Shown here: in pieces, positions 1,015-26,317 of the stretch
Numbering within the stretch: the stretch's first letter is position 1
Layout: every line of letters starts with the position of its first letter
Virus record (IMG/VR): IMGVR_UViG_3300020162_002577
Location: 1-27,499 of that record
DNA length: 27,499 bases
Strand: one strand, 5' to 3'
DNA from: a virus
The notes under the pieces: generated by a model
Seen by the model: the letters and a program-made list of their open reading frames with translations, nothing else
What the model was told of the DNA's origin: nothing
Database searches by the model: none
Made by a program: the position numbers and the translations under genes

Positions 1015-2094
1015 CTAGTAGGTGCCGCAGTCAATCGTCACATCTGCGATGGTGACGTTGCTGATGGCTCCGCCAGTGATGCTGACGTTGGAGCTGGCTT
1101 GGGTGGCGATTGTGCCGAGGCCCAATGTCGTGCGTGCTGCTGCGCCGTCGGCGTCGTCCACGAGGGAGCGTCCGAAGGAGCTGAAGTCAGCTACGGCGGC
1201 GGTGCCTGCCCCGGTGAAATACGGCACTTTGTCAGCGGCGCTGGTCAGACCGGCGATGGCGGCGAGTTCCGCATCGTAGGCTTGGACATTCGAGCCGATG
1301 GCGACTCCGAGGTTCGTGCGGGCCACGCTGGCGTCCGCGAGGTCGCTCAGGTTGGAGGCTTTGGCGAGCTTGGTGCCGAGGGCTGTTGTTAACGTCGAGG
1401 TGTAGTTCGCGTCGTCATTGATGGCGGCGGCGAGCTCGTTGAGGGTGTTGAGCAGATCAGGCGCTCCGTCTACGAGGCCGGAAACGGCGCTGTCCACATA
1501 GCCCTTGTTGGCGGCGTCGGTGCTGACTGTCGGATCTGCGAGGCCAGTGATCTTCTGCGAGTTGAGCGAGACGGACGCCGATGGCGCGGCCATTTGATCG
1601 AGGCGGCTGGTGCGGACTTGCGTATCGAAGTCGCTGATCTTGGACGCGGTGAGCGTCGGGATGTCGCTGGCTTCGAGGTTCGCGCCTGTGGTGACGAGAC
1701 CTTTGGCGTTGACCGTTACTTTCGTGTGGGTGCCTGCGCTGACGCCGGAGTTCGCCAACGTGGCGGAAATGCTGGCGTTCGCTGTGCCGTTGAATGCCGA
1801 AGCAGTTCCGGTGACGTCGCCGGTGAGGCTGATGTCGCGGCCTGTGGCCAATGCGGTGGCTGTCGCGGCGTTGCCGTCTACCGAGCCGGAGATTGTCGAG
1901 GTGAAGGTTTTGACTCCGCCTACGGTCTGTGCGCTGGTTTTGTCAACGAATGCGCCCGAGCCACCGAGGCTCAATACACTCGTTCCATCGCCAATGTAGA
2001 CTACACCGGACGCTGTGTTTAGGGCCAACTCACCTGCGAGAAGGCTCGATGGCACTGACGTGCCTCTTTTGATTTTTAGAATTGGAGCTGCCAT
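1015..2094 (-). CDS. Phage tail fibre protein (359 aa)
   Basis: The sequence has hallmarks of long tail fibres. It begins with a 'GTSVPSSLLAGELALNT' segment and a 'VYIGDGTS' turn. It has an NAATATALATGRDISLTGDVTG stretch, then 'LADPTVSTDAANKGYVDSAV' and repeated 'DASVARTNLGV' / 'DGAAARTTLGLGT' units, which are the short fibre repeats common in lambda- and P2-type fibres. These are thought to form trimeric beta-helical shafts. It ends with a short 'VTIDCGTY' tail. The mRNA leader (2095-2151) is rich in A and C, has no Shine-Dalgarno sequence, and contains AACCCAAC. A TTTGACA word stands at 2152-2158. Probable role: adsorption to the host. Confidence 0.8.
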   Translation of the reverse strand: MAAPILKIKRGTSVPSSLLAGELALNTASGVVYIGDGTSVLSLGGSGAFVDKTSAQTVGGVKTFTSTISGSVDGNAATATALATGRDISLTGDVTGTASAFNGTANASISATLANSGVSAGTHTKVTVNAKGLVTTGANLEASDIPTLTASKISDFDTQVRTSRLDQMAAPSASVSLNSQKITGLADPTVSTDAANKGYVDSAVSGLVDGAPDLLNTLNELAAAINDDANYTSTLTTALGTKLAKASNLSDLADASVARTNLGVAIGSNVQAYDAELAAIAGLTSAADKVPYFTGAGTAAVADFSSFGRSLVDDADGAAARTTLGLGTIATQASSNVSITGGAISNVTIADVTIDCGTY

Positions 2095-2151
2095 TTGATT
2101 TTATTTTAGTTGCTGCGGTTTGTTGTGTGGTTGGGTTCTCTTTTTGGAGAT

Positions 2152-2158
2152 TGTCAAA
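2152..2158 (-). promoter_or_regulatory. TTTGACA element, 57 nt before the 2094 start
   Basis: One of nine sense-strand copies of TTTGACA found only upstream of late-gene starts in this window. It begins a few bases after the stop codon of the preceding fibre gene. Function unknown. Confidence 0.35.
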
Positions 2159-2161
2159 ATG

Positions 2162-3352
2162 TTAGTATTCGCCCGCGTCGATGGTGCCTGGGGCTGGCTG
2201 GTAGGTGGTGCCCGTCCAACGCCAAAGGGTGCCGAGGTCGTCGGCGAGGTAGAGGCGCTGGAGGCGTCCGGTGGCGGGGAAAGCTGCTGCGGTCGGGTAA
2301 ACGACAACCGGCTCGGCGTAGTCGGAGATTTCCGAAATCGTGTGGGTGTGGACGGCGGCGGCTTTGTTGGCGAGCTCGGCGGAAACCCAGAGGTCGTAGG
2401 CGGGCGAGCCCGTTGACGCTGAAAACAACGCCCATGAAAAGTGGCCTGGGGGATAGCCGGGGTTATTCGGATTGCTGACCCGGATATATAAAAGGCCGTC
2501 GGTATAGGTGACGACGTCGCCGTAAGTGTAATCAAGCCCGTTGTTATAATTGCCGCGATAATTGACAGGCGTGGGCTGAAGGGCGGTGTCGGCTTTTGCG
2601 CCTTGGGCGGCGGTGGCTTTGCCGTCTATCTGAGTTTGAAGCGAGCCGATGCTGGCGGCGGCTTCGGCGATGGAGTCGAGCGCGGCGGGGTCGAGATTTG
2701 CGGCGAGGTAGTCTATCCGCTGGCCGAGCGAGGTATCTGAGGCAGTGAGGGCGGCGAGGTCGGCATTAAGGCCGGTGATCTCGCCTTTGAGGTGCGTGTG
2801 AGCCGAAGGCGCGAAGGTCGTTGGCTTGCCGGTGATGGATTCCCACGAAGTGGCGGCGAGGCGTAGAATCGCCTGAGCGGTCCGCAGCGGGGTCATCCAT
2901 GCGGAGTTGTCGGTGCCTGCTTCGGCTTGTGCTTGGGTGGCTTTGCCGTCTGGCATCGCCACCGGGGTGGCTTCGGTGCCGAGGATGACGGAGTTTTGCA
3001 CTTCGACAGGGAGAGTGGCGGTGCGGGTGGCTTCGCCGGTGGCGGTCCACTTGACCTCGAGGAGGGCGCTGACTACAGCGGGGGAGGATGCGAATGCGGC
3101 CTCGAGGGGGATGGTGTTGAGATCGAGCGTTCCACCGGCGGCGAGGGCGAGAAAATTGGTGTCGGCGTAGGTGGCTTTTAAGGCGGTGGTGAAGGTCGTG
3201 CCGACGGGCGTGGCGATAGCGGCCCCGCGTTGCACGAACTGGATCTCCAGGGCGAGGCTGTCGCGGCGTTTGAGCGTAAGCGCGGGGAGAGCGGCGGAGG
3301 ATGCCGCCGACTTAACGAACCGCCGAGATGTGATGTCGATGAATAACTTCAT
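2162..3352 (-). CDS. Phage tail fibre / baseplate protein with CBM5/12-like segment (396 aa)
   Basis: Three parts can be seen. Residues about 1-130 form a beta-rich N-terminal domain. The middle has tail-fibre signatures: 'KATQAQAEAGTDNSAWMTPL', 'SAHTHLKGEITGL' and 'HTHTISEIS'. Around residues 265-315, 'YRGNYNNGLDYTYGDVVTY' followed by 'GLLYIRV' and 'SWALF' resembles a carbohydrate-binding CBM5/12-type module, which binds chitin-like or other glycans in known families. The C-terminus (GTLWRWTGTTYQPA) is another short aromatic-rich beta segment common in fibres. A TTTGACA word lies 22 nt before the ATG. Likely a receptor-binding component. The CBM assignment is tentative. Confidence 0.7.
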   Translation of the reverse strand: MKLFIDITSRRFVKSAASSAALPALTLKRRDSLALEIQFVQRGAAIATPVGTTFTTALKATYADTNFLALAAGGTLDLNTIPLEAAFASSPAVVSALLEVKWTATGEATRTATLPVEVQNSVILGTEATPVAMPDGKATQAQAEAGTDNSAWMTPLRTAQAILRLAATSWESITGKPTTFAPSAHTHLKGEITGLNADLAALTASDTSLGQRIDYLAANLDPAALDSIAEAAASIGSLQTQIDGKATAAQGAKADTALQPTPVNYRGNYNNGLDYTYGDVVTYTDGLLYIRVSNPNNPGYPPGHFSWALFSASTGSPAYDLWVSAELANKAAAVHTHTISEISDYAEPVVVYPTAAAFPATGRLQRLYLADDLGTLWRWTGTTYQPAPGTIDAGEY

Positions 3353-3374
3353 GCCGCTTCGATGAGCGGCGAGA

Positions 3375-3381
3375 TGTCAAA
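3375..3381 (-). promoter_or_regulatory. TTTGACA element, 22 nt before the 3352 start
   Basis: Member of the nine-copy TTTGACA set. It is too close to the ATG to serve as a -35 box for a transcript that includes that start codon. Confidence 0.35.
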
Positions 3382-3399
3382 TGCGCGGCGGTCGCGGAA

Positions 3400-4233
3400 C
3401 TAGGTCAGGAGCGGAGCGGAGGGGGGAGAGAAACTGGAAACCGGAGACTTGAGACCTGAAACATCTTCCGCTTCCCATTTGCCGAGGGGGCATCTTTCGG
3501 TCGCCATGCGTAACTTCGCCCACGTCGAGCATCCGCATTTGCGGCAGCGGCCCGTGGCGTTGAGTGCCTGCGCGTCCCATTCGGGACAGGCGCGGCACGT
3601 TGCTTCGCGGGTGGCTAGTGCTTCGGGTGGGGTGGGAATAAAATTTGACGCTGCAAATTTACGAATAGCAAACCCAACATTTTTCATTTGCTCCCAAAGT
3701 GTAGGGTTAGATTCTGTTTGAGATTCTGCTAATGTTTGTGGTGCTTTAATGCTTTCGTATAAATCAAAGTCATCCTTGTAGATTTCACGGAGTTTGTCGG
3801 AATACGGAAAATTAATCTCTTTATCGTAAATCTTTGGTGGTTCTCCGAGGTCTAGCGTTCCCCAAAAATGCTCAATATGATCTGTTGCTTTCCAAAGATA
3901 GATCGGCTGCCCACCCCATTTTAAAAATCTTGATTGCGGAAAAAAATGAAATGACGGGAACTTTCCTTGAGCTACTAATTTCACCGCCTCCTCTGGCTCA
4001 ATGCCGTCTTCGTGACAGGCGGCAATAAATCTCTTGATTGGGTCCCCCAATAATAACGCAACGGGATTACTTGGTGTATTTTTGTATCCCTTAATAATGA
4101 AATGAGGCCGAAATGGAATAACGCCTTGGTTTTTTTTAATCCAAATTGCATTAACAATTTCTGTGGAAAATACTTTCCAGTTATAAGCAACATCAAATCC
4201 CCCGTATTCACAATATGAAAATCTGAAAATCAT
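3400..4233 (-). CDS. Sulfotransferase-like protein with C-terminal zinc-ribbon (277 aa)
   Basis: The N-terminal 190 residues resemble small sulfotransferase-family domains: 'LLLGDPIKRFIAAC' (compare 'vRdPveRfvSay'), then 'HFFPQSRFLKW' and 'LREIYKDDFDLYESI' (compare 'l..iY..Df.ly'). A clear PAPS 5'-phosphate loop is not visible, so catalysis is uncertain. The C-terminus has a Cys-rich unit, CRACPEW ... CRKCGC ... CPLGKW, a zinc-ribbon tail seen on some phage proteins. The final 20 residues (LKSPVSSFSPPSAPLLT) are encoded by degenerate heptamer repeat DNA (3430-3465) and look like a late extension. The gene directly abuts its upstream neighbour (TAAATG). Its 5' two-thirds is markedly A+T-richer than the flanking fibre genes, suggesting separate acquisition. 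Host-surface or virion modification is possible but unproven. Confidence 0.5.
   Translation of the reverse strand: MIFRFSYCEYGGFDVAYNWKVFSTEIVNAIWIKKNQGVIPFRPHFIIKGYKNTPSNPVALLLGDPIKRFIAACHEDGIEPEEAVKLVAQGKFPSFHFFPQSRFLKWGGQPIYLWKATDHIEHFWGTLDLGEPPKIYDKEINFPYSDKLREIYKDDFDLYESIKAPQTLAESQTESNPTLWEQMKNVGFAIRKFAASNFIPTPPEALATREATCRACPEWDAQALNATGRCRKCGCSTWAKLRMATERCPLGKWEAEDVSGLKSPVSSFSPPSAPLLT
3430..3465. repeat. Degenerate heptamer repeats (GAAACTT-type)
   Basis: About five tandem 7-base units, GAAACTG, GAAACCG, GAGACTT, GAGACCT and GAAACAT, lie at the 3' end of the sulfotransferase-like gene and encode its last residues. Related units recur at 4859-4897 and, in inverted orientation, near 4974-4993. 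Confidence 0.5.
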
Positions 4234-4839
4234 TTAAGGAGATGGGGTAATAGTAATACTAAAAGATGCGGTTGCGGTTGCATCAAGATTATAGATTCCA
4301 AAACTTATGCTTCCTGCCGAAGTTGCTATTGTTCCTGGTCCAACTTGAGTAAATTCTACAGGGCCACCTCCCCCAGCAGCATCATAGCCAGAGTTAATAA
4401 AAAAACCTACTGTATAACAAATCTCAAATGGATTATTCCAATCGGGAACTGAAGAAAAACATGATCCGCCACCAGAATAGGCAATCCTATATTCAGTCCC
4501 AACTTTCGCAATGTCCCAATAAATAACGAGGCTTGAATTATAGGGAGAACCATCAGCACTACACGTCATACCGCCCCCAACAACAGCAAATCCAGAGCAA
4601 AGTGATGCATTTCCTCCTGCAGTTCCAGAAAATGAACATCCCGTGTATTCGCTTCCTCCACCAGATCCGCTTACCGATCCACCAGATCGTAATGCGTCAA
4701 ACATTGCCTCTGAGATTACAATATAAGAATCAGTAATTTCTGGACACGGCGGAACACAACACGCGCACTCGACCGCGCGAGTTGCGCCGTTGTCGGTTTT
4801 GATTTTCACTGCGCCGGATGATGTGAGGCCGAGGGTCAT
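4234..4839 (-). CDS. Putative tail protein, Gly/Ser-rich with N-terminal Cys cluster (201 aa)
   Basis: Unrecognised family. It begins MTLGLTSSGAVKIKTDNG, followed by a compact cysteine cluster (ECACCVPPC, about residues 24-32). A long Gly/Ser/Cys-rich beta-type region follows (SGGSVSGSGGGSEYTGCSF and more). There is no membrane segment. The composition and position between tail-tip and fibre genes suggest a virion tail component. Its coding DNA, apart from the first 100 bases, is A+T-rich, like the start of the next gene. It is translated in series with the sulfotransferase-like gene: its stop TAA is followed immediately by ATG. Confidence 0.5.
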   Translation of the reverse strand: MTLGLTSSGAVKIKTDNGATRAVECACCVPPCPEITDSYIVISEAMFDALRSGGSVSGSGGGSEYTGCSFSGTAGGNASLCSGFAVVGGGMTCSADGSPYNSSLVIYWDIAKVGTEYRIAYSGGGSCFSSVPDWNNPFEICYTVGFFINSGYDAAGGGGPVEFTQVGPGTIATSAGSISFGIYNLDATATASFSITITPSP

Positions 4840-4858
4840 TGAAGAAAAGGGTGAAGGG

Positions 4859-4993
4859 TGAAACTTGAAACTTGAAAGGTTTCCGGTCTCAGGGTTGCCT
4901 CGCTCGCGCCCGCGAGTCTCGCCCTTCGGGCTGCCTTCGGCAGGCTACCCGGCCATCGCCCGCTGGCCCGTGTTCCGGTCTCAGGTCTCATCT
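4859..4993. repeat. Intergenic segment with heptamer repeats in both orientations
   Basis: The gap between the genes at 4839 and 4994 starts with GTGAAACTTGAAACTTGAAAG, shifts to TTTCCGGTCTCAGG, and ends with TTCCGGTCTCAGGTCTCATC, which is the inverted form. The middle (4900-4970) is G+C-rich, with a CGCTCGCGCCCGCGAG palindrome and a GCCTTCGGCAGGC hairpin. It looks like an inserted non-coding repeat related to 3430-3465. Confidence 0.45.
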
Positions 4994-5251
4994 TTAGCAT
5001 GCCTCGGTGGCGATCCATTGCAGGGTGCCTTCGACCGCTGCGAGGACGTGGGTGCCGGATGCTGGCGGCTTCGGAAATTTAAATCTGCGAGCGGAGTAGT
5101 TATTTACGAATGCCGGTTCCGTGAATGCGTCATCCACCAATAGTTTCGCATCTGCAAAGTTTTGCATGAGGTCTGCCGCAGATATTGAATAAACTGGCGC
5201 GCCTACGATCTTCGCCACGAAATCCACGGGCAGATTGTCTTGGTTGTTCAT
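4994..5251 (-). CDS. Hypothetical late protein (85 aa)
   Basis: Small soluble protein starting MNNQDNLPVDFVAKIVGAPV and ending LQWIATEAC. It has no motif I recognise and no signal peptide or membrane segment. Its ATG follows the stop of the large tail protein by only a few bases, so it is co-translated with it. Position between the tail-tip protein and the fibre genes suggests a minor tail component or fibre-assembly factor, but nothing in the sequence proves that. Confidence 0.55.
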   Translation of the reverse strand: MNNQDNLPVDFVAKIVGAPVYSISAADLMQNFADAKLLVDDAFTEPAFVNNYSARRFKFPKPPASGTHVLAAVEGTLQWIATEAC

Positions 5252-5254
5252 TTT

Positions 5255-7939
5255 TTAGAACGGGATGAACTCGGTGCGGCGAATGGCTTTGACTTCAAAA
5301 TCGCTGAACGCCAATCCCCATGTGGCAGTGACTTCGTCGATTTCACCGTAGTTGGCGCGGGACAAGGATAAGAGCTGTGCGAGTGACGCCATAGCGGTAT
5401 CGGGCGCGGGCGAGATTGTCGTGAAGCTCCGAATAGTGCCTCCGTTACCTTGCTGAAAAGTGGGCGCAAATATTTGCAAAAATTCCGCGAATGAACCATA
5501 GCTCTCGGAAGTCGTGGTGTTCGTTATTTCAAATGTATCGAACTTGATCGGCTCGGATGGGAGGCCGATCTCGGTCATTGACGTTGACTCTCCAATGGTG
5601 AAGCGCTTGGTGATGGTGTCCGACAAAATCCGCAAATTAAAAATCCATGGCGCAAGATTTGGCCCGCGATTTAAAGTCATGGAAACTGAGGAGAGTTGCG
5701 TGCCGAAAACCGTAGGCACATCGACTGGCACACTGATGGATTTCCGACCCGCAAACCCCGTGATGGAGAATTTTGCAAATCCGGAAGTGTCATAATTCTG
5801 CGCGGCGGAATCTTTGCTGATGTGGTCGGGGAAATTTGGCAACGCCATTCGGGCCTGCAATAGACGCGAGGCGCTCGCGGCATTTGGGGTAGGGCAAATG
5901 TATTCAGCCGAAACTACCGAGAGGCCTGAGTCACTGGTCTGGCGCTGGTGGCTAATGAGCTGGAGGTTTTTGTTGCCGCGATAAATATATGCGGACTTTA
6001 AAACTCGAAGCTGGAGGCTTGTCGACGTCGAGCTGCCGCCGCCGGAGACGGTGATGGCTACCGAGAGCGGCGCAATAACCGAGCTGGGGGTCCATGTGAT
6101 TTCGCCTGTTGAGGAGTTGATCGTCGCGCCGGTGGGTAACCCTGTGGCGGACCACGCTGAGGCGGGGCTATTTTGAGGGTTCTGGAGGCGGGGAAAATAG
6201 CTCAACGGAAAGTTTAACCAGGCGTCGATCTTTTGATTTGGGTCGATGGCCGGAATCCCCGGGGCTATGACGAAATTCACCGTCTCGGTGGAAGATCCGA
6301 AGACGCTGAAAACCGTGACCGCCAACGAAAACGAGCCGACCTTGTTAGGCGTGCCGATTAGCGCGCCGTCGTCGGCAATTTCCATGTAAAATGGCAAGCC
6401 GACAGCTTTAAAATACAACGGAGGTGCGCTTATCGCGTCGAGGGCGAGCGATACGGAGAGAGGCACATCTACTCGCCCCGTGATGGTTTGGTTGGCATTA
6501 ATAACGGCGAGACCACCGACAATGCGGATTGTGAAAACCGCACTGGCATTCGATCCGTCACCGCCCAAAGCATTGATGGTTGGGTTGAATGTGCCGACTT
6601 CTGTTGGCGTGCCTGAAATGAGGCCCGTCGAGCTGATAGTGAGTCCTGCTGGGAGTCCGGTCGCACTCCAATTGGACGCTGGTGTGGCGCGTTGGTCATA
6701 GACGGTGCACTGGCTTTCAAACTCCTGCCGCGCCGGAATAACAAAATTGCCAATGTTGATGTTTGGCGTGCCGCCTACGCCGCCAAACGAGATGCTGGCA
6801 TACGGGCGCGGAAAAAATATGCTGCGAGACTCCATATTAAACCCTGGAGCGAACATCTGCGCGGAACCGTCTGATTTTAGTGCATAAACATATTGCGGGT
6901 GGCCGAAATCCGCAGTCCCTGAAGAAAAAATCTTTGTGAATCCAGTTCCCCCAATCACCTCCGTCCAATAATAGCCGAGGTTGTCCCAATTTAGGACGCT
7001 GCCATTTGAAAAAACAACAGAGCTGACAGATCCCAGCGATGATACTGAAACAACCGAGCCTTGTCCTGAAATAGGGCCACCTTGTCCTCCTACGACAAAG
7101 ACCGTGCCGTCTGTTTTTCTAATCATCAACTGCGAAGAGCCTACCGCCAACTCAGCCACAGTCCCGCCAATGCCCGTTATGAGAGCAGGCGTTCCAGATA
7201 TGTTGGAGTAAACAGAACCGTCTGTTTTTTCTACCGCCCATTGATTGCCATCACCATAATTTGTTGCAATTTTACGGACATTGGTATTGACGGTTACACC
7301 TCCCACCACGCCGTAATCCGCATCGCCAAAGCTTGTTCGGTTCCACTCATAGACAACGCCGCTGGATCGCAATCCATAAAAAACTTGGTTGTAATGGCTG
7401 CCCCTCACGCCAATTTTTGTAACGGGAAATGTTGGGATGTTGGGGAAGGCGACTCCACCGGTAGGTGATACTGGATCGCCGACAATTTCAACCATGCCAG
7501 AGCTCTTGCGAGCTATAGTATTGCTCCGGCTATGAGGGTAATCAGGCACCGTGAATTGGCACGCTTGCACATAGTCGCCATAAGCGATCTGTGTTTGAGC
7601 TATCCGTGCATCGGTATTGTATTGGCCTGCGGAATAAGCCTGACAAGACAGAATAACGCCGTCGGTAGTTACGCCCAACACGGCATAGCAATAGACCTTT
7701 TGAAAACTGCAGCCTGATGGAATTACTACAAATAAATCCGCCCACGTTGATTGATAGGAAACTTTTGCATTTCCACTATAAATTTTACTAAGCGTACCGG
7801 AGAGCACGCCTGTGCTTGGGTCAATGCCAATGAACTCTGGCGTATCTGCTAAGAATCCGGTATGTGGAATGGTAGTTAATACGGGCGCGGTAAATGGCAC
7901 GCCAACGACGGGGTTGAAAATTTGTCCTGGTGTAATCAT
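5255..7939 (-). CDS. Large tail-tip protein with Ig-like (He_PIG-type) and RCC1-like repeats (894 aa)
   Basis: Residues about 8-55 (VVGVPFTAPVL ... IDPSTGVLSGT) and three further units between about 395 and 650 carry the He_PIG pattern 'W.a.GLP.Glt..s.TG.isGTP...G'; examples are 'WSATGLPAGLTISSTGLISG' and 'WSATGLPTGATINSSTGEIT'. Between about 170 and 385 are repeated 'Y.LkSdGsV' type units (YGLRSSGVVYEW, VEKTDGSVYS, IRKTDGTVFVVG, YALKSDGSAQMF), which suggest an RCC1-like beta-propeller. The last ~240 residues are unassigned. It follows the tape measure with an ATGA overlap, the usual place for distal-tail or tip proteins. A role in host contact is likely; the enzymatic role, if any, is unknown. 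Confidence 0.7.
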   Translation of the reverse strand: MITPGQIFNPVVGVPFTAPVLTTIPHTGFLADTPEFIGIDPSTGVLSGTLSKIYSGNAKVSYQSTWADLFVVIPSGCSFQKVYCYAVLGVTTDGVILSCQAYSAGQYNTDARIAQTQIAYGDYVQACQFTVPDYPHSRSNTIARKSSGMVEIVGDPVSPTGGVAFPNIPTFPVTKIGVRGSHYNQVFYGLRSSGVVYEWNRTSFGDADYGVVGGVTVNTNVRKIATNYGDGNQWAVEKTDGSVYSNISGTPALITGIGGTVAELAVGSSQLMIRKTDGTVFVVGGQGGPISGQGSVVSVSSLGSVSSVVFSNGSVLNWDNLGYYWTEVIGGTGFTKIFSSGTADFGHPQYVYALKSDGSAQMFAPGFNMESRSIFFPRPYASISFGGVGGTPNINIGNFVIPARQEFESQCTVYDQRATPASNWSATGLPAGLTISSTGLISGTPTEVGTFNPTINALGGDGSNASAVFTIRIVGGLAVINANQTITGRVDVPLSVSLALDAISAPPLYFKAVGLPFYMEIADDGALIGTPNKVGSFSLAVTVFSVFGSSTETVNFVIAPGIPAIDPNQKIDAWLNFPLSYFPRLQNPQNSPASAWSATGLPTGATINSSTGEITWTPSSVIAPLSVAITVSGGGSSTSTSLQLRVLKSAYIYRGNKNLQLISHQRQTSDSGLSVVSAEYICPTPNAASASRLLQARMALPNFPDHISKDSAAQNYDTSGFAKFSITGFAGRKSISVPVDVPTVFGTQLSSVSMTLNRGPNLAPWIFNLRILSDTITKRFTIGESTSMTEIGLPSEPIKFDTFEITNTTTSESYGSFAEFLQIFAPTFQQGNGGTIRSFTTISPAPDTAMASLAQLLSLSRANYGEIDEVTATWGLAFSDFEVKAIRRTEFIPF

Positions 7940-17682: not shown

Positions 17683-19389
17683 TTATTTGATAACCCACCA
17701 GGCGACCCCGTGGAGTTTGGTGCAGTCACCGTAGTGATCTTCGGCGACTTTCTTCCAATAGAATGGGGCGAGGCGGGAGTGTTTATTTTGGAGGAGTTGC
17801 TGGCCGGAGTGGCCGACGATGAAGTCGTTGCCAGCGTCGGAGGGGAGATGGAAGGGGGGCGGCATTTTTTTATTAATGCGCTCGAGGTAGAGCTCGATCT
17901 TGGCTGTGTGGTCGACGTAGGTGACGAGGCGCAGGCCGGGGTAGCCATTGATGGCGGATTGATTCCATGTGCCAAAGGCGGCGGACGAACCTTTGGATGG
18001 GATGTATAGGCCGCCGCTCTTGGCGCAAACGGAATAGACGCGCTCGGCGGACCAACCGGAATCGATGAGGCCGAAGCGGGGGGTGAATGTTTTTTCGCCG
18101 AAGGTGTAGGAGCGCTGCGCGAGGAAGTCGGGGGAGATGAGATCCTCGATGGCGAGCACGGTGCCGTAATCAATAACCCAACTCTCGCCGGTGGCGATGC
18201 GGGCCTCGACGGTCCAGTGAGTCTGACGCTCGCCGGGGTCGGCGCAAAGGGTGAGGATGACGGGCTCGATGGGTAACTCGCGGATGCGGTAGTCGCTGGA
18301 TCGGAGGGCGAGGATGGAGGACTCTTTGACGGTGGCGGCGCGGTTCTCCCACGGGATGCCGAGGAAGTTATTATGAAAATCGTGGAGGCCGCCGGGGCTG
18401 TCTTTTTTTTGCAGGAATGTTCTGGCTAAATCGCCCCACGACATCTGCGGGGAATAGAGGGCGGAGATGTGTGCGGAGATGTGGTCGGTGGGGGCCTTGG
18501 GATTCCCTGCGATCCACTCTCCTGCGCGGATGAGATCGCTCTGCATGGACTGGGGCCAGTGGGAGGAGCAGGCCTCACAGGCGTAGGTGGTCTCGTCGGC
18601 GACGGCTTCGAGATCCCAGGCACCGGCGAGATCGCGGTGATGCTCGGGCCACTTGAGCTGCTCGAAGCGGAGGGGCTGGGCGGTGCCGCAATCGGGACAG
18701 GCGATGTGGTAGCGGTGCTGGCTACCGGCGAGGAAGTTCTGCCAGATCGCGGCGGACTCGACGGTGGGGGTGGAGGTGAGGCAGACCTTGGCGATCTTGC
18801 GGTAGAAATTCGTCCGAGCGATGGCGAGCTCGAGGGCGGGGGCTTCGAGGGAGGAATCGTCTGGCCACTTGTCGACCTCATCGGCGAAGAGATAACGAAT
18901 CGCGCGGGAGGCGAGGTTGCCTTCGGAACAGGCACCGACGAGCTTGAGGGTGCATGTGGAAAAGTGCATTTCCGTTTTTCGGAAGTCATCTTCATTGGCG
19001 GGGATGAGATGTTTGATGGCCGGACAGGATCGGAGGCGGGGATGGAGCTCGCGCTCGGACCAGCTTTTTGCATTCTCGTTGGTCGAGGTGACGTAGAGGA
19101 TCGGGCCGGGGTCTTCGCTGATCGCCCACATGAGGCAATTAGCCAGCCAGGTGGTGCCGCCGACTTGGGCGGACTTCACAAAAGTGAGTTGCCGGACGCG
19201 GGGATTGGAAAACCAAAGGTGGAGCTGCCGAAGGTAGGGAGTGTAGTCGGCGTCGTATTTCCCAGGGCGCGGGGTGAAGCGCTTGTCGAGGGTGACGTTA
19301 TCTTGCGCCCACTCGAGGGCCGATGGCCGGCGGCCCGGGTCCCAGATGCGAGCGAGTTGCTCGCGGATATCGGTCTCAAGCGATGGCAT
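17683..19389 (-). CDS. Terminase large subunit, lambda gpA family (568 aa)
   Basis: ATPase part: an ATP-binding P-loop-like motif 'KSAQVGGTTW' (72-81, the gpA-type 'K.aqvG.t' rather than a classical Walker A) and a Walker B 'YLFADEVD' (166-173). A Cys4 zinc site lies at C231/C234 (CPDCG) and C271/C274 (CEAC). The C-terminal half carries the endonuclease: 'ADPGERQTHWTVEARI', then 'FGLIDSGWSAERVYSVCAKS' with acidic metal-ligand candidates, and 'NDFIVGHSGQQLLQNKHSRL'. The terminase cuts concatemers and powers packaging into the portal. The length is slightly under the 640 typical of lambda gpA. Its start overlaps the small-subunit stop by 14 bases. Confidence 0.92.
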   Translation of the reverse strand: MPSLETDIREQLARIWDPGRRPSALEWAQDNVTLDKRFTPRPGKYDADYTPYLRQLHLWFSNPRVRQLTFVKSAQVGGTTWLANCLMWAISEDPGPILYVTSTNENAKSWSERELHPRLRSCPAIKHLIPANEDDFRKTEMHFSTCTLKLVGACSEGNLASRAIRYLFADEVDKWPDDSSLEAPALELAIARTNFYRKIAKVCLTSTPTVESAAIWQNFLAGSQHRYHIACPDCGTAQPLRFEQLKWPEHHRDLAGAWDLEAVADETTYACEACSSHWPQSMQSDLIRAGEWIAGNPKAPTDHISAHISALYSPQMSWGDLARTFLQKKDSPGGLHDFHNNFLGIPWENRAATVKESSILALRSSDYRIRELPIEPVILTLCADPGERQTHWTVEARIATGESWVIDYGTVLAIEDLISPDFLAQRSYTFGEKTFTPRFGLIDSGWSAERVYSVCAKSGGLYIPSKGSSAAFGTWNQSAINGYPGLRLVTYVDHTAKIELYLERINKKMPPPFHLPSDAGNDFIVGHSGQQLLQNKHSRLAPFYWKKVAEDHYGDCTKLHGVAWWVIK

Positions 19390-19975
19390 CGTCGAGGCGG
19401 ATCTCTTTGGCCGAGCGCATCACGTCGGTGATCTCGGCGTGGATTTTTGCGGCGATGTCTTCGCCGATCTGAGGGAGGAGGCTGAGGATGCGATCGGGGA
19501 GATTCGAGACGGCGGCGGCCACCCCGGCGCTGTATTGGAGAAGGGCTTGATGGAAAAGGCGCTTGCTCACCACATCCCCCGAGGCATGAGCGATGCCAGG
19601 CGCGTCTTTTTCCAGACGTCGGAGGGCTTCGGCGTGTTGGAGCCACATCCGGCGGAGCGTCATCTCGGCATCGAGGTCGCCGGTGAGCTTCGCCAGCTCC
19701 GCACGCTCGCGCAGATCGGCGGTGGCCTCCTTGAGTTTGCGGATCTGGTTGTCCAGTGTCAGTTCCTCATCGGTCCACTCGCGAGGATTAGCCGTTTGAG
19801 GTTGAGCCGGAGCAGCCGATCCCATGGGAACCATCCCGGCAATCGCACGGTCGGCGAGAAATTTGTTCCAACGAGGGTCCGCAGCGTCACGCCACTTGCG
19901 AACAGCACGCGGCGTAACGCCGTGGCGCGCCGCGCATGTCTTGATTAAGTCCGCCTGTTCCCTTCCGTGTCGCAT
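19376..19975 (-). CDS. Terminase small subunit / DNA-packaging recognition protein (199 aa)
   Basis: The N-terminus 'REQADLIKTCAARHGVTPRAVRKWRDAADPRW' is a winged or simple HTH of the kind that recognises pac or cos DNA. A Glu/Arg-rich coiled region (about 70-120, 'LTLDNQIRKLKEATADLRERAELAKLTGDLD') follows. The C-terminus has 'SKRLFHQALLQYSAGVAAAVSNLPDRILSLLPQIGEDI', as in Nu1-like small subunits, with an amphipathic end for the TerL contact. The start is ATG at 19975, 23 nt after a TTTGACA word. It is the first gene of the late operon, next to the GGAAC cluster at 19986-20042 that could be its binding site. Confidence 0.8.
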   Translation of the reverse strand: MRHGREQADLIKTCAARHGVTPRAVRKWRDAADPRWNKFLADRAIAGMVPMGSAAPAQPQTANPREWTDEELTLDNQIRKLKEATADLRERAELAKLTGDLDAEMTLRRMWLQHAEALRRLEKDAPGIAHASGDVVSKRLFHQALLQYSAGVAAAVSNLPDRILSLLPQIGEDIAAKIHAEITDVMRSAKEIRLDDAIA

Positions 19976-19985
19976 ATGTGGTTAC

Positions 19986-20042
19986 GGAACGGGGCGCGTG
20001 TCAAAGGAACGGAAGCGGAACAAGGGCCACAGTTCCAGTTCC
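19986..20042. repeat. GGAAC/GTTCC cluster next to small terminase
   Basis: Within 57 bases there are three direct GGAAC copies (19986, 20006, 20017; the first two extended to GGAACGG) and two inverted GTTCC copies (20032 and 20038). The location beside terS is where cos or pac sites lie in lambda-like phages. Candidate binding region for the small terminase. Confidence 0.4.
19999..20005 (-). promoter_or_regulatory. TTTGACA element, 23 nt before the 19975 start
   Basis: First copy of the nine-copy set, in the intergenic leader of the late operon. Its context GTTCCTTTGACA is close to the boxA-like TGTTCTTTGACA of some bacterial rRNA leaders. Confidence 0.4.
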
Positions 20043-20146
20043 GTTACCATTTCGGCTCACTCGCTCAAAAACACCGATCGTCTGGCTAAACTGCAAGAAC
20101 GCCCACGCTGAAAAGATTCCTTAGTACGCCAGTGGAAAACCCAAAC

Positions 20147-20398
20147 GCATAGGTGCGTAGGTCAAAAACTTTATTCCTTAACGATACCCATACCCTCAAT
20201 TAAAAAAGTCAAAAGACCTATGCTACCTATGCCACCTAGTTGAGCCATCACAGAAGAAATGCTTGGAGAACAACTTACAACACAATTAAACTGCATAGGT
20301 ACTGCGTAGGTGCATAGGTCATCTGCAAACTCTGTAATGAAGGGTCGGGGAATGAGACGAGAGAAGCGGAACCGAGCGGACCTGTGCATGACCTATGC
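20147..20398. repeat. Iteron-like repeat cluster (GCRTAGGT), candidate origin or operator
   Basis: Eight copies of GCATAGGT/GCGTAGGT or their complement are in this gene-free region. Direct: 20147, 20155, 20293, 20304, 20312. Inverted (ACCTATGC): 20216, 20225, 20391. A degenerate ACCTAG is at 20234. Three are in tandem without gap (20147-20162, 20304-20319). The spacer (20163-20215) is A+T-rich (AATTAAAAAAGTCAAAAGAC). The repeats lie between the helicase operon terminator and the late operon, a classic place for an iteron origin or for operators. Confidence 0.65.
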
Positions 20399-20402
20399 AA
20401 AC

Positions 20403-20430
20403 AAAAAGGCCCGCCGTGATGGCGGGCCTT
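20403..20430 (-). terminator. Intrinsic terminator of the primase-helicase operon
   Basis: On the minus strand, GGCCCGCC and GGCGGGCC form a perfect 8-bp stem with a 5-base loop, followed by TTTTT. It starts about 26 bases after the helicase stop. Confidence 0.88.
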
Positions 20431-20456
20431 GTGAGGTATGGAGTCAATGGGCTGGG

Positions 20457-22082
20457 TTAGTTGAGGACCTCGAGTGTGTAGAGTCGCTGGCGGTTCTTTC
20501 CCTGCTGGCCCCACTTAACGACGCGCCCAGTCGGCAGCGTGAACTTCTTGCCGCCGTATGCTTCAGCGAGGAGCTTACCGAACTTCGACTTTGCTCGAGC
20601 CGTGAGGACGTAATGCCGAGGGCCATCCTTGCCTTCACGCTCCTCCTTACCTTCGAGCAACCAGGTGAAGGAGTTCACATCGAGCGCTGCCTGCACCACG
20701 GTTTGGAAGTCGAACTCAGCCACATCGTCCACACCTTTTGCCAACTCAGCCACCAGGGCGACCATATCCGCCAACTCCGAGTTACCGGACTCCTCGACAG
20801 GAAGAGGTTCGATAGGGTCTCCGAACCCAGCAAACTCCACCATACCGGCGAAGATCTGACACCATTGTTCATATCCGCGAACCAATCGCTTGGCATGGGG
20901 GCGGCCTGCAGCATCCCACTCGCGCACGATGGCCCACAGACAGGCGAGGAGCTGAGACCGGACCTCGGGACGCTCGAGCCACTCGTCGCTCATCACGTTC
21001 TCGATCTTGCGCGCTTGGGGATCAGACTCATCCGTCATCATTTTGCAGTGTAAGAAGCGGCGGGCCACGTCAGGCGATACCTCGAGGTTGTTGCCTGTCA
21101 GGAACACACTGGCGATCTTAGGCACTGCAAACTTCTGTTGGGAGTGCATACGGCGGCCAGACCATGTGGGAGCAGTCAGAAAAGCATTAAGGATCTGGCT
21201 TTTGAAAAAACCATTGCAGTCATCGAATAGGATATAGGGAGAGCCTGCTAGGGATTCTGTATCGAGGATCTTCCTCCACTCTTCCTCGGCAGACGGCACA
21301 GGCTGGACGTCACAGGAGCCGATAGTGGTGATGATGGCGAGCTGGGCCAGCAACGTCTTCCCAGATCCAACTGAGTTCGAGCTGAACATGAAGTTGAGAC
21401 GGCGGGCCGATGGTCTGAGCAGTGGGGCCGCATACATGCCAAGCATAGAAGCTAGGACAATGGCCTCATTGCGCGATCCTCCATCTGATCGACGATCCCC
21501 AAATGGGAACTCCTTGAGCAGATTCCTCAACACCGTCTTGGCCTCATCTAGTGGCATATCATGAGCGAACTCCACCCCCGAGTTCTGCGTGTATGTCTGC
21601 GCCTCGGCATCATAGCCATAGTCTAGCAACTCCACCCGGCCATCCTTTCGCTTCACCGGCTGCCGAACCGTGGCAACACGCATGAGCTCACGTTGCCGAG
21701 ATAGGAACTGATCAGACTCAAGGATCGTCGCGGCAGACTCCACCGTCATAGTTTGAGCCTTCTTTTCAAAAACATTCGGGGATGGGGTTGCCCACTTGAA
21801 CGTCACAAGATGCTCTTCGCAATAGGTACGGAAGCGGCGCGCCGTCATCTCCACCAACCGCCCATCTGGCGAAACCGTCATGGCCGCACGCTGCCGGACA
21901 AAGACTCCATTCTGACACAATACCCCACCGATCTCTCTCGCCATCGACGAGATCACCGGCTGGAGCTCAATGTAGGGGAGAGCATTCGTCTCCGACTTGG
22001 GTTGCGTCTCTTCCTCACTGGGGTGAGGGGTGATTCCATATTCCGCCAATTTGCTGTTAATAGTATCAGATAATTTACTCAC
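20457..22082 (-). CDS. Phage replicative helicase, AAA+/SF3-like (541 aa)
   Basis: The C-terminal two-thirds is an ATPase of the D5/SF3 type: Walker A 'SNSVGSGKT' (235-243), Walker B 'YILFDD' (283-288), a sensor motif 'FLTGNN' (327-332) and an Arg-finger-like 'DVARRFLH' (338-345). The N-terminal 200 residues probably hold a primase-linked or DNA-binding part. The last 60 residues include a small 'RHYVLTARAKSKFGKLLAEAYGG' domain, perhaps a winged helix. The start is GTG at 22082, overlapping the primase stop by 8 bases with AAAGG upstream. Together with the primase it would replicate the phage genome; the iteron-like cluster is just downstream of its terminator. Confidence 0.75.
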   Translation of the reverse strand: MSKLSDTINSKLAEYGITPHPSEEETQPKSETNALPYIELQPVISSMAREIGGVLCQNGVFVRQRAAMTVSPDGRLVEMTARRFRTYCEEHLVTFKWATPSPNVFEKKAQTMTVESAATILESDQFLSRQRELMRVATVRQPVKRKDGRVELLDYGYDAEAQTYTQNSGVEFAHDMPLDEAKTVLRNLLKEFPFGDRRSDGGSRNEAIVLASMLGMYAAPLLRPSARRLNFMFSSNSVGSGKTLLAQLAIITTIGSCDVQPVPSAEEEWRKILDTESLAGSPYILFDDCNGFFKSQILNAFLTAPTWSGRRMHSQQKFAVPKIASVFLTGNNLEVSPDVARRFLHCKMMTDESDPQARKIENVMSDEWLERPEVRSQLLACLWAIVREWDAAGRPHAKRLVRGYEQWCQIFAGMVEFAGFGDPIEPLPVEESGNSELADMVALVAELAKGVDDVAEFDFQTVVQAALDVNSFTWLLEGKEEREGKDGPRHYVLTARAKSKFGKLLAEAYGGKKFTLPTGRVVKWGQQGKNRQRLYTLEVLN

Positions 22083-23226
22083 ATTTGCCTTTCAGTTCAC
22101 CCGCTGCGCCAAGCAGCCAAGCGTCAAATTTTCCATAGAAGTTGCACGCGGCAGCCGCCCTCGCCGTATCTGGCTGAGGGTAGTTTTGTTCTGTGCACCG
22201 GATCGCCTCACCACGCCAAAAAGCCACCACATCCCGCCGTGGCATTAGGTCGAGCAAAGTCAAAGACGGGGAGGACGGGGCGAAGTAGAGGAGCTTCTGT
22301 TGCTTGTCCCCGCGAAGACATGAGGGGAGGCGGGTCAAGCGAACCGCACTCAGCGCGCCCGGATCAGCACCAGCCACCACAAGCCCCATGACCTTTCGCT
22401 TTTCATCATCCCATTCCTTCTTGCAGCGCGCATCTACACGCACCAGCGCATGCACCGAGCGGCCTCCCGAAGTCGTGATGGCCGCGATCCTCGGCATGAT
22501 ACGAGCCAAAGCTGCCAGCCAGAGCTTCACCGGCGCCTCATCACTCTCGAGGACCATCCATCTCCAGGCCAACACCGACTCCTCGGAGCGTCGGGACATT
22601 TTCCCAAGGCGAGGATTTGGGCGAGACTTCCCATCCACCGGCTGCGCGAGGAACCAAATGCCTTCTGGTCCCGAAGTCGGTATCCGATCAGTCGGCCATA
22701 TCGCTTGGCCTTGGCTTTTGTATTCAGAAAAGACCACGACTCTCTCACCGGCTGGAGCATTATAAAGCCGAGCCAGGAACTCCTCAGCCGAGACAGTAGC
22801 AGGATCGACCTCGGAACGATTCGCCAGCCAGATCAGATCGACCTTATCAGCGAGATCACCGGCAAGACGAGAGAGAGCATTGACATCAAAGATTCTCTTC
22901 TCAGGCGGTTTGGATTGGCGGACTTGAGCAAAGTGAGTTGACTCAGGAGCCGAAGCCGACCCGAGCAGATAACCGTCAGCACCAGGACCATTCGCCGCAG
23001 AGCGGATCTTGTGCTCGAGTTCGTGCTCGGTCCAACGATCCGCATTGCCCTGGTTCCACTCAGCCAGCAAAGCCAACGCATCCGAATGAGGAATCATAAA
23101 TCCCTTCACCAGAGATTTTGCAGCCAGAAGGGTATGGGTATGTCCACCAGCTCCAGATATAGCCGGACCCACCTTTGCCAGATAACGACGCGCGCGCTCG
23201 ATGACCGGAACTTTTTCCTTGATCAC
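22075..23226 (-). CDS. Primase, PriCT-like plus AEP-like (383 aa)
   Basis: The N-terminus 'VIERARRYLAKVGPAISGAGGHTHTLLAAKSLVKGFMIPHSDALALLAEWN' followed by 'WTEHELEHKI' is the helical domain common in phage primases. The C-terminal half carries archaeo-eukaryotic primase marks: 'MVLESDE' (about 224-230; D/E at the metal site), 'SGGRSVHALVRVDA' (253-266; the SxH motif) and 'VRLTRLPS' (about 294-301). Two starts exist: GTG at 23262 and GTG at 23226. I prefer 23226, which has GGAGGGG 3 bases before it. It is the first gene of a two-gene operon with the helicase; its promoter would lie in the att region. Confidence 0.65.
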   Translation of the reverse strand: MIKEKVPVIERARRYLAKVGPAISGAGGHTHTLLAAKSLVKGFMIPHSDALALLAEWNQGNADRWTEHELEHKIRSAANGPGADGYLLGSASAPESTHFAQVRQSKPPEKRIFDVNALSRLAGDLADKVDLIWLANRSEVDPATVSAEEFLARLYNAPAGERVVVFSEYKSQGQAIWPTDRIPTSGPEGIWFLAQPVDGKSRPNPRLGKMSRRSEESVLAWRWMVLESDEAPVKLWLAALARIMPRIAAITTSGGRSVHALVRVDARCKKEWDDEKRKVMGLVVAGADPGALSAVRLTRLPSCLRGDKQQKLLYFAPSSPSLTLLDLMPRRDVVAFWRGEAIRCTEQNYPQPDTARAAAACNFYGKFDAWLLGAAGELKGKCE

Positions 23227-23282
23227 AATCCCCTCCCCGTGCAGAGTCGCATCTTGTTGCACACCGGCGACCGCCCTAAAAA

Positions 23283-25478: not shown

Positions 25479-26317
25479 AAAAAGGAGGATAAAGTTTTTG
25501 AACGATCTAGAACGCTTGACTTTAGAACATTACGAACAAAATAACTTGCTTGGTTTTTATCCTCATCACTGATCACGATTTTAGTCAGACCTTGCTTGTC
25601 TTTATTAAAAACACGAAAGCCTCTTGCCAGAGATTCTCGATGTTCGACTGCTTTTGCCTTTCCGCTTTCCACCTGTCGAACAAGGGATTTTGCACTTTGG
25701 GACATCTCATCAAAATTAAGAGTGCATAGAGCTCTATATTGTTTGAAAACAAAGTCTGGATCTTCTCCGGCCATTATTTCAATGCAGGCAGCAAGTTTCA
25801 TCGGTGCAGAAGAGTAAAACTTACGCCTTTTATTACAAAATTCTACAAGAGCGCGGGTTGCATCTTGAAGTCCGCTTTCAATTATCGGCCTCATTTGAGA
25901 AATTGTTGGTTTATTGCAGCCGAGCGCATATTGGCAACCCAGTCTCATTACATCAGCTACATCACGACCTTCTCCAAGTCGGTCAGCATAATTGCGAACG
26001 ATACCGATATCGGTTACTTCGTAGGCAGATGGATCAAGACCAAAGACAACCACTGACCAGAATGATTGACCGCTTTTAATGCATGCGTTCAAACGGTGAT
26101 GTGCATCTCGCAACCTACCTTCGCTATCAAAGCCAATACCTTGGCTTGTGACGAGCCACTCCCCTCTTTTCATAGCTCCTGCAAGTAGATCCACATACCA
26201 ATCTCTCAAAGTTCGATTGCCTGGACTTGTTTCCAGCATTTCTTTCGCGATAGCCGGAGTGATCTTCATCAGGACAGCTTCTGCGATGTCCCTTACATAT
26301 TTAGTTTTTATACTCAT
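25475..26317 (-). CDS. ParB/sulfiredoxin-fold-like phage protein (280 aa)
   Basis: The N-terminal 110 residues fit the ParB-like fold found in many phage and plasmid proteins: 'ITPAIAKEMLET' and 'GNRTLRDWYVDLLAGAMKRGEWLVTSQGIGFDSEGRLRDAHHRLNA', then 'SFWSVVVFGLDPSAYEVTDIGIVRNYADRL'. The usual 'l.DGqHRl.A' is 'LRDAHHRLNA' here. The C-terminal helical part is unassigned. The ATG at 26317 has AAAGGA upstream and overlaps the HTH gene stop (TAATG). The DNA is clearly A+T-richer than its neighbours. Probable role: DNA-binding or nucleotide-dependent regulation; not proven. Confidence 0.65.
   Translation of the reverse strand: MSIKTKYVRDIAEAVLMKITPAIAKEMLETSPGNRTLRDWYVDLLAGAMKRGEWLVTSQGIGFDSEGRLRDAHHRLNACIKSGQSFWSVVVFGLDPSAYEVTDIGIVRNYADRLGEGRDVADVMRLGCQYALGCNKPTISQMRPIIESGLQDATRALVEFCNKRRKFYSSAPMKLAACIEIMAGEDPDFVFKQYRALCTLNFDEMSQSAKSLVRQVESGKAKAVEHRESLARGFRVFNKDKQGLTKIVISDEDKNQASYFVRNVLKSSVLDRSKTLSSFL

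Follow-up and report, generated by a model that had tools for sequence, protein, structure and literature searches.

The DNA analysed here (the window) is a phage contig of 27,499 nt, on which all genes that could be assigned are located on the - strand. A gene-free stretch of 481 bp (19976-20456) separates the genes for a helicase and a primase from those for the terminase small subunit (TerS), a lambda GpA-type terminase large subunit (TerL), and a lambda-type portal protein, which follow leftward in this order. Tail genes were judged by eye. The gene-free stretch contains an array of short repeats, an A+T-rich core and, between the array and terS, the elements of a probable cos site (Table 1). 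Searching phages and plasmids for near-identical sequences gave no match to the window. Among its relatives are L122, a contig from a MAG labelled Chthoniobacter flavus (TerS 78%, TerL 82%, helicase 75%), and, at a greater distance, the Akkermansia phage Moulinsart (TerL 36%, helicase 28%), which comes closest among named phages. Because of these relatives, a host among the Verrucomicrobiota appears likely. In the late region, the G+C content dips to ~0.43 at 3400-5018 compared to 0.57 for the window, and the genes in this part were possibly acquired recently. The late region also specifies a protein of 894 residues (5255-7939) with repeats that resemble, by eye, beta-propeller and Ig-like segments, which is likely a host-contact protein.

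Table 1. Position of genes and predicted elements at the array locus of the window
Feature	Position	Strand	Remarks
TerL, lambda GpA family	17683..19389	-	PF05876, E 2.4e-56; PF20454, E 2e-19
TerS	19376..19975	-	phrog_57, E 5e-5
GGAAC/GTTCC repeats, candidate TerS site (cosB-like)	19986..20042	.	between cut and terS; role suggested by location
Putative 12-nt cohesive end (cosN)	20080..20091	-	homologous position is the start of nine left-end contigs (GTTT...) and the end of L087, a right-end contig
AAGGAATCT element, cosQ-like candidate	20114..20122	-	invariant in window and 17 relatives; 22 bp before cut; role suggested by position
Iteron cluster D	20147..20162	+	tandem exact units 20147, 20155
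A+T-rich core, candidate unwinding element	20163..20215	.	70% AT; role suggested by the PICI origin layout (PMC6092414)
Iteron cluster C	20216..20232	-	exact units 20216, 20225; highest conservation (0.94-0.96); faces A+T-rich core
Iteron cluster B	20293..20319	+	exact units 20293, 20304, 20312
Iteron cluster A, outer set, helicase side	20380..20398	-	exact unit 20391-20398; one-change unit 20380-20387
Intrinsic terminator after helicase gene	20406..20430	-	terminator prediction
D5/SaPI-type helicase, candidate Rep/initiator	20457..22082	-	fold match of model
Helicase C-terminal domain (~residues 435-541), candidate iteron reader	20460..20780	-	winged-helix-like topology in model; alignments
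Primase, overlapping helicase start (pri-rep order)	22075..23262	-	phrog_2597 DNA primase, E 9.8e-13

No Pfam family was matched by the helicase, and a profile of 34 relatives gave no hits to solved chains at E <= 0.1. According to its AlphaFold model (pLDDT 85.9), the protein has the fold of D5 and SaPI Rep helicases. The top VIA structural match was the SaPI5 primase-helicase (7ola_D, Z 14.6, 318 aligned, rmsd 4.3); 7om0_D was matched with Z 14.1 (376 aligned, rmsd 5.2), and poxvirus D5/E5, PriRep1, and NrS-1 were close behind the SaPI5 match, D5 and NrS-1 being partly tied. For the isolated C-terminal model, the fold search reached Z values of 5.9 at most, with initiator winged helices (ORC, RctB, RepE) among the matches, and Foldseek found none at E <= 0.001.

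The repeat array and its conservation

The repeat cluster is real, with a number of units well above the chance level. Eight exact GCRTAGGT units, five on the + strand and three on the - strand, and a ninth unit with one change (ACCTGTGC) are found within 252 bp, where ~0.02 would be expected. Compared to the eight exact units in the gene-free stretch, the average over 20,000 Markov resamples was 0.023 and the highest count 2, and the 10 exact units in the entire window compare to a shuffle mean of 0.78 and a maximum of 4. The two units outside the array, at 3165 and 18581, are at chance level. Clusters C and D are facing inward on either side of the core, and the array starts ~60 bp past the helicase stop, in the window as well as in relatives. 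A first-pass annotation had described eight units, five direct and three inverted and including tandem pairs, around an A+T-rich core bordered by the helicase terminator. All of this was recovered: every unit is present where it had been placed, the core of 53 bp has an AT content of 70% compared to 43% for the window, and an intrinsic terminator is predicted between the helicase gene and the array.

Searches of viral contigs yielded 11 loci with the helicase and 54 loci with TerL as query. An array at the equivalent place and with the same spacing was detected in all 17 contigs that were aligned with the window across the region. Conserved spacing had been proposed as a check in the first-pass annotation, which had also named missing repeats in close relatives as counterevidence; the spacing is fixed, and none of the 17 contigs lacks the array. 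It is kept even in L051, with identities of 56% for the helicase, 58% for TerS, and 49% for TerL. In some relatives of the window clade only three exact units are left, and the remainder is degenerate. Among seven representatives, column conservation was 0.84 in the iterons versus 0.68 in the spacers, a difference not reached by any of 5000 circular shifts. The array is not described in the open-licence literature searched, and Rfam produced sub-threshold matches only.

Two further points raised in the first-pass annotation found no support. Some units had been thought to overlap TTGAC promoter-like words, yet a search for sigma-70-like promoters detected no site in 19900-20600, and relatives have not retained the TTGACCTACGC context. 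GC skew, suggested as another check and determined for the window, seven related contigs, and Moulinsart, was not diagnostic: on the + strand, the window and three related contigs (G021, G022, G024) show a drop at the array, but its polarity is that of a maximum, not a minimum, the change is absent in two others (G019, G020), and it is confounded by gene direction and genome end, which coincide at this place.

A probable cos site next to the array

Thirteen contigs end within 250 bp upstream of terS, and nine of them begin at one homologous base (GTTT..., corresponding to 20091 on the - strand of the window). These nine come from nine different metagenome numbers; one further contig starts four bases earlier. 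The right end of another contig, L087, is located 12 bases past the common start and has GTTTGCCAGTCG in common with L033, L039, L042, and L047. Such a 12-base overlap with left-end contigs would be expected if cohesive ends of 12 nt had been filled in. In L241, from another clade, the contig ends at a matching distance from AAGGAATCT (42 vs 43 bases). Since several right-end contigs stop elsewhere (L074 and L206 of the window clade, L229, L237, L244), the figure of 12 nt rests on few contigs. Two contigs with a TerL of 43% identity, L054 and L055, likewise begin with GTTT. In their clade (L053-L055), the contigs start at or near GTTTAGG ~855 bp before terL, which suggests a similar fixed genome end.

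The element preceding the cut is widespread. In 60 of 65 loci, AAGGAATCT (57 loci) or AAGGAGTCT (three loci) was detected no more than 800 bp from the helicase gene on its 3' side. In its position, AAGGAATCT is similar to lambda cosQ. In Moulinsart (L189, 316), AAGGAATCT precedes terS, and an integrase gene sits between the helicase gene and that region. From these arrangements a cos site ~55 bp from the array is probable, and the contig ends would then represent terminase cuts. AAGGAATCT may be used as a simple marker of the genome end for uncultured phages of this lineage.

Association of the array with the helicase gene

Scans for iteron patterns covered 46 viral and 77 genome stretches; the loci L081, L137, and L146 come from these scans and were selected by pattern. 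The scan for triple repeats placed the repeat directly 3' of helicase homologues with identities of only 23-40%. A helicase homologue was present in 23 of the 46 viral loci (22 and L046) and in two of the 77 genome loci, to which L122 has to be added, where the helicase is outside the fetched tile. Many of the remaining loci showed 9-bp-period repeats elsewhere. By a profile search, 42 further distant helicase loci were obtained, most of them carrying an array 3' of the helicase gene. The repeated word in distant loci is specific to the clade: ACCTATGC, ACCTTGAC, ACCCCCGC, ACCGGTTCC, CATGGTCA, ACCTGTGC, ACCCCCGCC, ACCTTGACC, or ACCCCTGCA. When 65 loci were shuffled individually, the rearranged contig L212 being left out, an enriched word (five or fewer of 100 shuffles) was detected in 40, with a top word of low complexity in eight of the 40; no clear array was apparent by this test in L214, L219-L221, and L250-L252.

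Arrays are also found beside the helicase gene in the company of other terminases. The terminase of L081 is T4-like (Terminase_6N) and encoded on the opposite side of the helicase, that of L146 matches phrog_38 and is ~4 kb away, and L137 is an integrase element in an assembly without window-type TerL. Linkage of the array to the helicase gene, and not to the terminase, is supported. The L137 element (1382-6350, from a Verrucomicrobiia MAG) encodes a tyrosine integrase, an HTH protein, and a helicase whose N-terminal domain is of the DnaB type, and its window-type iterons are arranged as two inward-facing triplets close to the contig end; it is possibly a satellite or a prophage. No clear GCRTAGGT array was seen in Moulinsart, which has an integrase 3' of the helicase instead. 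In L012 (63-2001), helicase residues 1-268 meet a primase on the opposite strand at ~838-866, and this contig is rearranged or chimeric.

Comparison of closely related loci suggested which part of the helicase changes together with the array. L236 and L249 encode TerS proteins that are 94% identical and differ at only one of the first ~59 residues; their TerL proteins have 95% identity. Over the ATPase part their helicases share 90% of the residues, over the C-terminal part 62%, and their iterons are unrelated (ACCCCCGCC vs ACCGGTTCC); at the DNA level, the array is 43% and the cos region 91% identical. Between L228 and L236, the helicase genes have a DNA identity of 89-98% before the last ~78 codons. 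Identity is 59-67% inside these codons and 46-65% over the array, and it is again 92-99% between AAGGAATCT and the early part of terS. The replaced block has sharp edges between flanks that are 89-99% alike. In window coordinates its coding part corresponds roughly to 20460-20680 and comprises, if the window model is transferred by alignment, the third helix and the wing of the C-terminal domain. The iterons of the two loci differ although, when the GRP motif is taken as the start, the C-termini share 90% of their residues, which speaks against a reading of the iterons by this part. A chimeric assembly could mimic one such mosaic, but this is less likely, because a similar drop in identity is seen between L243 and L228. 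The joint exchange of C-terminus and array in L228 and L236 indicates that the helicase may read the iterons with its C-terminus.

A correlation analysis was applied to 55 loci, leaving out loci that were too short or motif-less. Pairs with a core identity below 0.75 were dropped and 144 pairs below 0.995 were used, which are not independent of each other. Among these pairs, array identity was related to that of the helicase C-terminus, given core and cos, with a partial r of 0.55 (jackknife 0.37-0.61), and weakly to that of cos/terS, given core and C-terminus (partial r 0.17, 0.10-0.23). A Mantel test on 14 loci (L248, the same as L218, left out), which is cruder than the pair correlations, showed array k-mer profiles to be uncorrelated with helicase C-terminus, ATPase, TerS, and TerL (r -0.04 to -0.06). 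From the exchange in L228 and L236 and the pair correlations, the array appears to co-vary with the helicase C-terminus, and the winged-helix-like domain at this end would most likely read the iterons.

Interpretation and comparison with known systems

The best explanation for the array is a replication origin of the SaPI/PICI kind that lies next to cos and is recognized by the helicase of the phage itself, which we consider to be correct with a probability of about 0.8. The helicase would bind the iterons of 8-9 bp via its C-terminal winged-helix-like domain, assemble on the inverted iteron sets, and open the A+T-rich core. It would be loaded as a hexamer, and replication would start with the phage primase. 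A terminase of the lambda type would cut concatemers at the probable cos site ~55 bp further, which has its own AAGGAATCT and GGAAC elements.

Alternatively, the iterons could belong to the packaging site, as a cosB- or pac-like array bound by TerS or IHF-like proteins. This possibility was taken seriously after the shared contig ends had been recognized, as a fixed end is found ~55 bp from the array together with a conserved AAGGAATCT, the order helicase-array-terS is retained in most relatives, and lambda cosB also contains repeated, spaced sites. It was rejected, because TerS and cos remain near-identical while the iterons change, most clearly in L236 and L249, where the iterons are entirely different, and because arrays occur by unrelated terminases or none. 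Moreover, a separate conserved repeat family, GGAAC, is located between the cut and terS. A packaging function of the iterons is thus quite unlikely. Even less should be expected from a multi-operator switch, in which a repressor such as the HTH protein at 26317 would act on the iterons to control late transcription. The position upstream of the late operon would suit such a switch, tandem and inverted half-sites could serve as operators, and HTH homologues are encoded in the window clade and the CATGGTCA clade. However, no homologue was detected in the flanks (up to 4 kb, incomplete) of the array-bearing ACCTATGC and ACCCCCGC clades, sigma-70-like promoters were not detected around the array of the window, its TTGAC context is not conserved, and the array is exchanged along with the helicase C-terminus.

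It is also very improbable that the array serves in partition or incompatibility, or that it loads the helicase only for concatemer processing, and is not an initiation origin. Co-variation with the C-terminus shows recognition at most, not initiation, and the skew is without origin signature, but the order pri-rep-ori and the inverted iterons on both sides of an AT-rich core agree with PICI origins that have been tested (PMC6092414). The first-pass annotation had offered an iteron origin and a multi-operator switch side by side. The origin is favoured by the fixed spacing, the position after the helicase gene, and the co-variation with its C-terminus, while no sigma-70-like promoter was detected for the switch to act on; the probable cos end next to the array had been missed.

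Tentatively, the origin reading may be extended. Helicase tip and origin array might form one exchangeable specificity cassette across a wide phage lineage, which would be replaced repeatedly as a unit, its limits being the body of the helicase gene and AAGGAATCT/cos. Related phages would switch origin specificity in this way, and replication and packaging signals would stay joined at one fixed genome end. We regard this extension as possible but rather doubtful. Such a switch would perhaps allow escape from incompatibility or from satellites copying the origin, the integrase element of L137 having window-type iterons. Since helicase tip and iterons were exchanged as a pair, a domain swap would offer a direct test of origin specificity.

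Several known systems share parts of this arrangement. In phage lambda, cos is laid out as cosQ-cosN-cosB. The window resembles it in the GpA-family terminase and lambda-family portal, the short conserved element before the probable cut, the repeats between this cut and terS and, as far as the few contig ends indicate, a 12-nt shared end. The sequences are different, however, and the probable cos site of the window abuts a candidate replication origin. The alpha protein of satellite phage P4 is a helicase-primase initiator reading short repeats, and P4 requires a distant second cis site, crr. The window contains only the isolated units at 3165 and 18581, which are at chance level, and no second, crr-like cluster was detected in the 27.5-kb fragment, the genome being probably incomplete.

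For Cch2 of SCCmec, PMC7581432 describes binding of the C-terminal domain of the helicase to direct repeats just 3' of cch2, as proposed for the window, but the repeat region is 23 bp long with three iterons of 5 nt and belongs to a mobile cassette, not to a phage. According to the same paper, the C-terminal domain of SaPI Rep reads iterons downstream of rep, and PICI origins follow rep on its 3' side and have an AT-rich region between two iteron sets (PMC6092414). The window shows the same succession of primase, helicase-initiator, and an origin-like array directly 3' of rep, its inverted iteron sets flank an AT-rich core, and the best fold match of its helicase is the SaPI5 primase-helicase. 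It differs by four iteron clusters instead of two sets, by a helicase without detectable sequence similarity to solved SaPI Rep chains, and by an array adjoining a probable cos site on contigs of a type that carries capsid, portal, and terminase genes. PICIs are recognized by incomplete virion genes and dependence on a helper, whereas the window has genes for terminase, portal, and head maturation protease. We do not assign the window to the SaPI/PICI family, because Rep similarity is not detectable, the isolated C-terminal fold does not exceed Z 5.9, and virion genes are present. A SaPI/PICI-style replicon in phage contigs with their own virion genes would tie islands to phages by a common replicon design.
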